From Rhodobacteraceae bacterium Alg238-R152 (GTDB lineage: Bacteria > Pseudomonadota > Alphaproteobacteria > Rhodobacterales > Rhodobacteraceae), in the NCBI GenBank assembly GCA_900537125.1, contig UNRJ01000003.1:372001-436000 (forward strand): 64,000 nt of DNA, written 5' to 3'. Position numbers and translations under genes: made by a program. Of the stretch, positions 4,139-12,412 are shown in pieces; positions within the stretch are counted from its first letter, which is position 1, and every line of letters begins with the position of its first letter. The notes under the pieces were generated by a model that was given only the letters and a program-made list of their open reading frames with translations, was not told the origin of the DNA and ran no database searches.

Positions 4139-4516
4139 CGCGCAGAGAGCTGGATGGCCGTGGGGGCGTAAGCCCGCGAGGAAAGTCCGGACTCCACAAG
4201 GCAACGGTGCCGGGTAACGCCCGGCCGGGGAAACCCGAGGGAAAGCGCCACAGAGAACAGACCGCTCTCGCTTGCGGGAGTAAGGGTGAAACGGTGGGGT
4301 AAGAGCCCACCGCGCGGCTGGCAACAGCGGCGGCACGGCAAGCCCCACCGGGAGCAATGCCAAATAGGGACCGCGTGTGCGCAAGCACAGGAGCGCTTTG
4401 CTCCGAGCAGGTCCGGGTTGGCAGCTTGAGGTGTCTGGTAACAGGCACCCTAGATGAATGGTCATTGAACCGGCTTCGGCCGGGGAACAGAATCCGGCTT
4501 ATAGGTTCTCTGCGCG
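4139..4516 (+). ncRNA. rnpB: RNase P RNA (bacterial class A)
   Basis: The catalytic RNA that matures tRNA 5' ends. Signature segments are present in order: GAGGAAAGTCCGGACTCC at about 4178-4195, the AGATGAATGGTCATTGA region at about 4452-4468, and ACAGAATCCGGCTTAT at about 4487-4502. The ends are set by the P1 helix, where 4139-4148 pairs with 4507-4516 over 10 bp. The length of about 378 nt is normal for alphaproteobacteria. Confidence 0.96.
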
Positions 4517-4588
4517 TCACCTTCCCATTTTGCACAAGACAAACAGGGGTTTGCGGCCATAGGGTGTCCACAAACAAATGAGGCCGCC

Positions 4589-9777: not shown

Positions 9778-9806
9778 TTGACGTTTGCGGCATTGCGGCG
9801 TAGTTC
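9778..9806 (+). promoter_or_regulatory. Promoter of the metZ transcript
   Basis: TTGACG at 9778-9783, a 17-nt spacer, and TAGTTC at 9801-9806. The predicted transcription start falls at about 9812-9813, the first base of the riboswitch P1 helix. It has the same box pattern and spacing as the rnpB promoter. Confidence 0.65.
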
Positions 9807-9811
9807 GCCTG

Positions 9812-9866
9812 TGTGGCGATTTGTTACCGGATTGCGGGCCACGTTAAAGATGCCGCTAAAGAGGTC
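9812..9866 (+). promoter_or_regulatory. SAM-II riboswitch
   Basis: Helix P1 is GTGGC (9813-9817) with GCCAC (9838-9842). The loop between them follows the SAM-II consensus (GATTTGTTACCGGATTGCGG). The 3' segment GTTAAAGATGCCGCTAAAGAGG matches the SAM-II tail with its GCTAAA core, which folds back as a pseudoknot. SAM-II riboswitches are known upstream of methionine genes in alphaproteobacteria; binding of S-adenosylmethionine should shut off metZ. The spacing to promoter and terminator fits a leader RNA. Confidence 0.85.
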
Positions 9867-9876
9867 AGGACGAAGG

Positions 9877-9913
9877 AGCCCCTTCCGCTTGGCCGGAACG
9901 GGGCTTTTTATTT
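9877..9913 (+). terminator. Intrinsic terminator in the metZ leader
   Basis: AGCCCCTTCCG pairs with CGGAACGGGGCT (one bulged C), with a 6-nt loop and then TTTTTATTT. It sits 10 nt after the riboswitch and about 35 nt before the metZ start codon, so readthrough rather than initiation is probably the controlled step. Confidence 0.85.
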
Positions 9914-9944
9914 GGGTCGGTCTTAGGGACCCGGGAGAGATGAC

Positions 9945-11283: not shown

Positions 11284-11311
11284 AGCGACAGCAGGGAAAA
11301 GGCGCTTGGCT

Positions 11312-12412
11312 ATGAATGTTCAGACTTCCAAGACCCAAACTCATACGACACGAGAAGAGGCCGTGGAGGCGCTTGAACGCTTGCGGGCATGGGCACAACA
11401 GGCCTCCGTGACTGAAATTGCTGAGCTCGACCCAGTTGTGGCGCGTTTGTTGCCAGATCAGCCGCTTGCGAATTATCCAGAGCTATCGCGCCAATATCCT
11501 GAAGGCTTTGAGGCAACGCCGGAGTACCGGGCCACTTTGCCAGATCTGCAAAACGGTCCTGAGAGCTTGATCAAAGGCGAAAAACAGCAGATCCAGCATG
11601 TTGGGATTTCAAATTTCCGTCTTCCAATCCGGTTCCATAGCCGGGACAATGGGGACATTATGCTCGAAACCAGCGTGACCGGAACCGTGAGTCTTGAGGC
11701 TGATAAGAAGGGCATCAACATGTCCCGGATTATGCGATCGTTCTATAAGCATGCCGAAAAAACATTTAGTTTCAGCGTGATGGAAGCCGCGCTGGCGGAT
11801 TACATCACCGATCTGGAAAGCTTTGATGCGCGTTTACAGATGCGGTTCTCTTACCCCATGAAGATCAAATCATTGCGGTCTGGTTTGGAAGGGTATCAGT
11901 ACTACGATATCGCGCTTGAGAAGGTTCAGCACGGTGGGAAGACACACAAGATCATGCATTTGGATTATGTGTATTCCTCGACTTGCCCCTGCTCATTGGA
12001 ACTCAGCGAACACGCGCGGATGTCGCGTGCACAGTTGGCAACCCCGCACTCCCAGAGGTCAGTAGCGCGTATCTCGGTGGAAATTGTGGATCGCCCCCGG
12101 GTTTGGTTTGAGGACCTTATTGACCTGGCGCGCGACGCCGTTCCTACAGAAACCCAAGTGATGGTGAAGCGTGAAGATGAGCAGGCATTTGCTGAGTTGA
12201 ATGCTGCGAATCCGATTTTTGTGGAGGACGCTGCACGGCTATTTTGTGAGAAGTTGAAAGCTGACCTCCGCATAGGGGATTTTCGCGTGATCGCCAGCCA
12301 TCAGGAAAGCCTGCATAGCCACGACGCAGTGTCGGTTCTAACGGATGGCCCTTTGTTTGCCTCTGAAAGCATTGATCCCAAACAGTTCACCACATTGTTT
12401 CACGTTGGGTAA
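11312..12412 (+). CDS. folE2: GTP cyclohydrolase IB (FolE2)
   Basis: A 366-residue protein of the FolE2/COG1469 family. It converts GTP to 7,8-dihydroneopterin triphosphate, the first step to folate and a source for queuosine. FolE2 uses several divalent metals in place of the strict zinc need of FolE. The metal/active-site motif SSTCPCSLELSEHARMS is visible near residue 225. ATG 11312 is preferred over TTG 11306 because it follows GGGAAAAGG at a normal distance. Confidence 0.95.
   Translation: MNVQTSKTQTHTTREEAVEALERLRAWAQQASVTEIAELDPVVARLLPDQPLANYPELSRQYPEGFEATPEYRATLPDLQNGPESLIKGEKQQIQHVGISNFRLPIRFHSRDNGDIMLETSVTGTVSLEADKKGINMSRIMRSFYKHAEKTFSFSVMEAALADYITDLESFDARLQMRFSYPMKIKSLRSGLEGYQYYDIALEKVQHGGKTHKIMHLDYVYSSTCPCSLELSEHARMSRAQLATPHSQRSVARISVEIVDRPRVWFEDLIDLARDAVPTETQVMVKREDEQAFAELNAANPIFVEDAARLFCEKLKADLRIGDFRVIASHQESLHSHDAVSVLTDGPLFASESIDPKQFTTLFHVG

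Follow-up and report, generated by a model that had tools for sequence, protein, structure and literature searches.

A candidate SAM-II transcription attenuator upstream of metZ in a Rhodobacteraceae bacterium

Our analysis indicates that metZ of Rhodobacteraceae bacterium Alg238-R152 is very probably governed by a SAM-II riboswitch that works by transcription attenuation, as an OFF switch in the leader of the gene (Table 1). This reading is based on the parts of the leader, on their conservation and on two folds that compete in silico, from which we infer that the RNA binds SAM, where its transcription begins and that it is terminated in vivo. The window, by which we mean the whole stretch of 64,000 nucleotides that was analysed, had been the subject of an earlier note placing a promoter, a SAM-II aptamer and a terminator in front of this gene; the coordinates and spacings that it gave for the three all proved correct on re-inspection. 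Promoter, SAM-II, terminator and metZ follow one another in order, the transcriptional control that the note read into them is the best-supported interpretation, and a competing antiterminator can be drawn in the modelled folds. The metZ leader is a standard arrangement, most likely working by the mechanism proposed for it. It offers a clean and testable instance of this known switch within the Rhodobacteraceae, and a modest gain is that an antiterminator for SAM-II control of transcription can be proposed with its coordinates.

The proposed mechanism would operate as follows. RNA polymerase would start at about position 9812, where P1 begins. At low SAM, the 3' strand of P2 (GGUCAGG) would be free to pair with the loop and 5' arm of the nascent terminator, forming the antiterminator and allowing metZ to be transcribed. 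When SAM is plentiful, the P1/P2 pseudoknot would be locked, the P2 3' strand would be occupied, and the terminator hairpin (9876-9906) could form. Termination would then take place at about 9910 and release an RNA of roughly 100 nt.

Table 1. Features of the metZ leader and gene, in positions of the window
Feature	Position	Strand	Details and basis
Sigma-70-like promoter	9778-9806	+	-35 TTGACG 9778-9783; 17-nt spacer; -10 TAGTTC 9801-9806
SAM-II aptamer	9803-9880	+	RF00521 (cmscan); conserved GCUAAAGAGG at 9855-9864
P1 arms	9812-9817 / 9838-9843	+	Outer pair U-G; five inner pairs located
Predicted antiterminator	9863-9894	+	GGUCAGG 9863-9869 with CUUGGCC 9888-9894; GAAGG 9872-9876 with CCUUC 9881-9885; loop AGCC
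Intrinsic terminator	9876-9913	+	Stem 9876-9887 with 9894-9906; loop 9888-9893; T-rich tract ends at 9913
Likely ribosome-binding site GGGAGAG	9933-9939	+	By eye, shortly before the metZ ATG
metZ, putative O-succinylhomoserine sulfhydrylase, 395 aa	9945-11132	+	ORF; TIGR01325, 549.6 bits (cut-off 510)

Parts of the metZ leader

The SAM-II call of the earlier note was borne out by the Rfam search, which matched the aptamer to SAM-II (SAM_alpha, RF00521) at 61.5 bits (gathering score 36) and with an E-value of 2.2e-11 when the whole window was searched. All 79 of the 79 model positions are aligned, the GAUUUG and GCUAAA(G)AGG elements are both kept, and P1 is free of marked non-standard pairs. 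At E <= 0.001 the metZ leader is the sole RF00521 match in the 4.27-Mb genome. Rfam models searched between 9500 and 11500 at E up to 1 gave neither a second riboswitch nor SAM-V near metZ; the one other match in this interval was to a microRNA family, far below cut-off. Judged by these features, the aptamer is of an ordinary, well-conserved SAM-II type and SAM sensing is predicted.

The intrinsic terminator that the note had seen right after the aptamer has a stem of 12 pairs with a single bulged C at 9899 and a predicted energy of -18.8 kcal/mol, and is followed by TTTATTT. A simple promoter/terminator scan listed neither this element nor the metZ promoter. It passed over the promoter because its -10 rule requires a T at position 6, and over the terminator, we think, because of the bulge, as the scanner takes plain stems. 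The terminator-like sites that it did list numbered three, when 3.2 were expected by chance, i.e., there was no excess.

The gene that follows the aptamer belongs to methionine biosynthesis, as expected of the SAM-II class. Three further models for O-succinylhomoserine sulfhydrylase have higher cut-offs, which its product does not reach, and from its sequence this enzyme is still the best name for it. Among the named matches listed, the closest relatives of MetZ are two proteins with 96% identity each, one from a MAG of Shimia and the other from a Rhodobacteraceae MAG, so a Shimia-like member of the Rhodobacteraceae, probably marine, is the likely source of the window. Downstream of metZ, the region 11306-12412 (+) encodes a GTP cyclohydrolase FolE2 (NF010200, 289.5 bits); its ORF as listed begins with TTG and the real start may differ. 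Elsewhere in the window, positions 4142-4517 (+) hold a full-length bacterial RNase P RNA of class A (304.8 bits).

Conservation of the leader in the family and the class

The promoter-aptamer-terminator-metZ leader is the norm for the family. SAM-II was matched at E <= 0.001 in 118 of 149 Rhodobacteraceae genomes, the source genome included, and over the cut-off in 117, and the DNA around the 119 places matched in this survey made up our set of leaders. A metZ homologue lies downstream of 118 of these 119 places. The exception (L118, in genome G077) is a second, weak SAM-II-like match of 30.7 bits, under the cut-off, where the gene that follows is no metZ homologue and the terminator search found no terminator. 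The promoter TTGACG-N17-TAGTTC, as given in the earlier note, is present in the window, and a like element (TTGA[ACT]-N16-18-TA) precedes 114 of the 119 matched aptamers, the window's included, compared with 0.7% in letter shuffles. The gap between the -10 box and P1 is 5-8 nt in 94 of the 114 promoter-bearing loci.

Terminators were searched as a hairpin with a T-run at most 100 nt downstream of a GCTAA anchor, which is missing from two of the 119 places (L063, where a letter is changed, and L119, where the aptamer is truncated). They were found in 102 of the 117 anchored leaders and in 27 of 117 controls, with one dinucleotide shuffle per leader. The difference extends to their stability, as 100 of the 102 have -12 kcal/mol or better, against 12 of the 27 shuffle hairpins (19 of which reach -8 kcal/mol or better). 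The search was negative in 15 of the 117 anchored leaders, of which at least one (L007) shows, by eye, a hairpin rich in GC whose T-run is poor. It might be thought that promoter, aptamer and terminator are unrelated sequences resembling such elements by chance, given that the simple scan shows nothing beyond chance in this region. This has a practically negligible probability, being refuted by the E-value of 2.2e-11 and by the frequency of the metZ homologue (118/119), the promoter (114/119) and the terminator (102/117).

One could also imagine a decayed riboswitch that would bind no SAM and would attenuate metZ at a fixed level. Decay does happen in the family: at L119 (genome G096, 303-334) a decayed SAM-II keeps P1 and the loop, with the GCUAAAGAGG tail and its GCUAAA absent and a metZ homologue still downstream. 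In the window, however, 79/79 model positions are aligned and GAUUUG and GCUAAAGAGG are intact. Moreover, the aptamer core and terminator are shared with a Shimia locus (L120). We therefore hold decay to be very improbable and retain a SAM-sensing switch as the preferred reading.

In the wider class, a SAM-II match was present in 90 of the 190 genomes searched, and in 78 it was over the cut-off. We sampled 30 high-scoring loci, all outside the Rhodobacteraceae and not chosen at random, of which two (L201 and L215) were unfit for the search pattern. Among the other 28, a terminator was found in 23 leaders, against 5 of 28 shuffles. A search of plasmids for copies of the leader gave one match of 52 nt, on a Pseudorhodobacter plasmid.

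A predicted antiterminator and the mode of control

The antiterminator model gives a double role to a single strand. GGUCAGG comprises the 3' strand of the aptamer pseudoknot P2 plus the bases that follow it, its partner CUUGGCC is in the terminator loop, and CCUUC sits within the terminator 5' arm. The minimum free energy folds computed with RNAfold for the whole leader and for the pre-terminator segment both contain the antiterminator, with -16.0 kcal/mol against -18.8 kcal/mol for the terminator, these energies excluding the pseudoknot and SAM. With P1 imposed and the sequence as far as 9867 blocked, to stand in for bound SAM, the best fold switched to the terminator. The whole-leader minimum free energy of the window is only 1.3 standard deviations below that of shuffles.

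Across the family, the best fold of the segment that ends before the terminator's 3' arm joins the 3' strand of P2 to the terminator by four or more pairs in 99 of 101 leaders (the 102 with a terminator minus L113, whose hairpin search spanned two hairpins), against 4188 of 6060 shuffles (69%) in which the downstream part was shuffled. The minimum free energy of the pre-terminator segment in these 101 leaders is on average 1.68 standard deviations below that of downstream-part shuffles. When the whole segment was shuffled, the mean z was -1.66 for all 101 leaders, -2.38 for the 48 of type A (the type of the window's leader) and -1.00 for the other 53. The wider class gave similar values, with pairing in 22 of the 23 terminator-bearing leaders, compared with 64% of shuffles, and a mean z of -1.60. 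A stricter test, in which duplexes of the 10-nt tail and the terminator half were scored directly, gave a weak signal, with 7 of 102 leaders in the best 5% of shuffles and a mean z of -0.45; in the window, for which the test ended one base before its GGCC, 186 of 200 shuffles were equal or better. When terminator halves were exchanged between leaders, pairing persisted in 1912 of 2020 combinations, so much of it comes from shared G-rich and C-rich sequence. Because 69% of the shuffles also pair, the support for the predicted antiterminator, competing with the aptamer in these models, is moderate.

Variation of the pairs themselves was assessed in the 49 type-A leaders. Their outer five pairs are GGTCA/TGACC in 27 leaders, GGTCA/TGGCC in 13, GGTCG with CGACC or CGGCC in three and GGTCG/TGACC in one, the other five having at least one mismatch. 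Since type A was picked by its terminator-loop motif, pairs of the G-G/C-C part are circular and the informative positions of the outer helix are only 3 and 5. This pair variation, in leaders that are related to one another and selected by a motif, is suggestive only. In a MAFFT alignment of 45 leaders (the 49 minus L024, L049, L083 and L113, which have a different layout), the columns of the antiterminator came out misaligned, and the alignment was left out of the pair counts.

The terminator might instead be constitutive and SAM act through translation or through the stability of the RNA, on the pattern of S. meliloti metA. In the available text of the study on that leader, no response of the terminator to the riboswitch was predicted, and changes with SAM are reported in the stability of the metA and metZ mRNAs (PMC9373788). 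The AAAGAGG tail of the window's aptamer also looks like a ribosome-binding site. Yet past this tail no ATG occurs before 9940, and the start codon of metZ, some 80 nt downstream, has a likely ribosome-binding site of its own. An ATG is found 4-14 nt past the GG of P2 in just 22 of 116 leaders, and in eight of these the frame is open and in phase with metZ. Furthermore, the P2 3' strand is complementary to the terminator loop, and the two predicted folds are mutually exclusive. We consider a constitutive terminator improbable, and SAM-dependent attenuation to be the better account of the leader. An upstream start codon was discarded as a shared feature of these leaders, the eight in-frame cases among 22 being close to the chance rate of one in three. 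The in-frame upstream ATG, with its frame open across the terminator, in these eight (L019, L043, L044, L055, L058, L084, L087 and L107) recalls the S. meliloti metA leader.

On balance, we think it somewhat more likely than not that alphaproteobacterial SAM-II transcriptional leaders share one design, in which the P2 3' strand of the aptamer itself serves as antiterminator strand and the loop and 5' arm of the terminator have been shaped to match it. If so, transcriptional SAM-II riboswitches would be switched by the very strand that, in the translational ones, hides the ribosome-binding site. We found no description of a class-wide SAM-II antiterminator in the available text of PMC9373788, PMC10907184, PMC2258182 and PMC4239095, and one may still be in print.

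Relation to known SAM-II systems

The SAM-II element was defined in 2005 by Corbino and colleagues, who described a near-consensus promoter just 5' of P1 and, for many members, an intrinsic terminator (PMC1273637). The main text of that paper contains neither 'antiterminat' nor 'anti-terminat' (PMC1273637). The class as first described, with the metA element of Agrobacterium tumefaciens, resembles the window's leader in its P1 and pseudoknot, the nearby promoter and, in many members, the terminator; in-line probing demonstrated SAM binding in that work, whereas it is predicted for the window (PMC1273637). In its available text, a 2007 study by Barrick and Breaker presents the way in which SAM-II controls expression as not experimentally established (PMC2258182). 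The earlier note had implied that a terminator after SAM-II was a surprise, which does not stand, as such terminators were reported to be common in 2005 (PMC1273637) and 2007 (PMC2258182). Its contrast with translation-blocking SAM-II reflects the best-studied example and not the commonest arrangement.

Sinorhizobium meliloti belongs to an order that differs from that of the Rhodobacteraceae. The study of this different bacterium, from outside the family, by Scheuer and colleagues in 2022 describes the effects of SAM-II on expression as unstudied before their work (PMC9373788). Its metZ leader has the same aptamer class, gene and predicted post-aptamer terminator as the window, and termination upon SAM binding was predicted for it (PMC9373788). 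At high SAM, an RNA whose length of about 100 nt is that of the terminated product went up and metZ mRNA went down, while metZ promoter activity fell and metZ mRNA was stabilised (PMC9373788). Because promoter activity and mRNA stability also shifted, termination is not isolated as the cause, and the reporter fusions with riboswitch mutations in the available text concern metA rather than metZ (PMC9373788).

Closer to the window, Leyn and colleagues recorded SAM_alpha in 14 of the 15 Rhodobacterales genomes they tabulated, with a single core target named metY (PMC4239095), which is probably the same gene as metZ here. Their work is a catalogue of targets, and its available text does not describe the SAM_alpha expression platform (PMC4239095). 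A small-RNA study of Ruegeria pomeroyi reported a cobalamin riboswitch, and SAM-II RNA was not found in its available text (PMC4809877).

Other SAM-II systems differ in their mode of control or in their architecture. The metX SAM-II from the Sargasso Sea has the same aptamer class as the window and is thought to be translational, with the ribosome-binding site hidden within P2 (PMC10907184, PMC9373788). The tandem SAM-II/SAM-V RNA of Pelagibacter has its SAM-II part before a predicted intrinsic terminator, as in the window, but contains two aptamers where the window's leader has one (PMC11508383). With the linker included, which carries the predicted terminator hairpin, its SAM-II domain was unresponsive to SAM (PMC11508383). 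This fits a linker that competes with the aptamer, but it is also a warning that SAM binding has to precede synthesis of the linker.

Tandem arrangements were also seen among our loci; we dismissed them as a novelty, since 44 examples of tandem SAM-II are already published (PMC9481103). Two loci carry tandem pairs of sub-threshold matches (29.6-33.8 bits, cut-off 36): L230 (485-562 and 598-672, +), before a metZ-like gene, and L231 (1162-1241 and 1006-1079, -), before a gene for a related PLP enzyme, both genes being named by eye. A terminator-like hairpin, again by eye, follows the first match of each pair.
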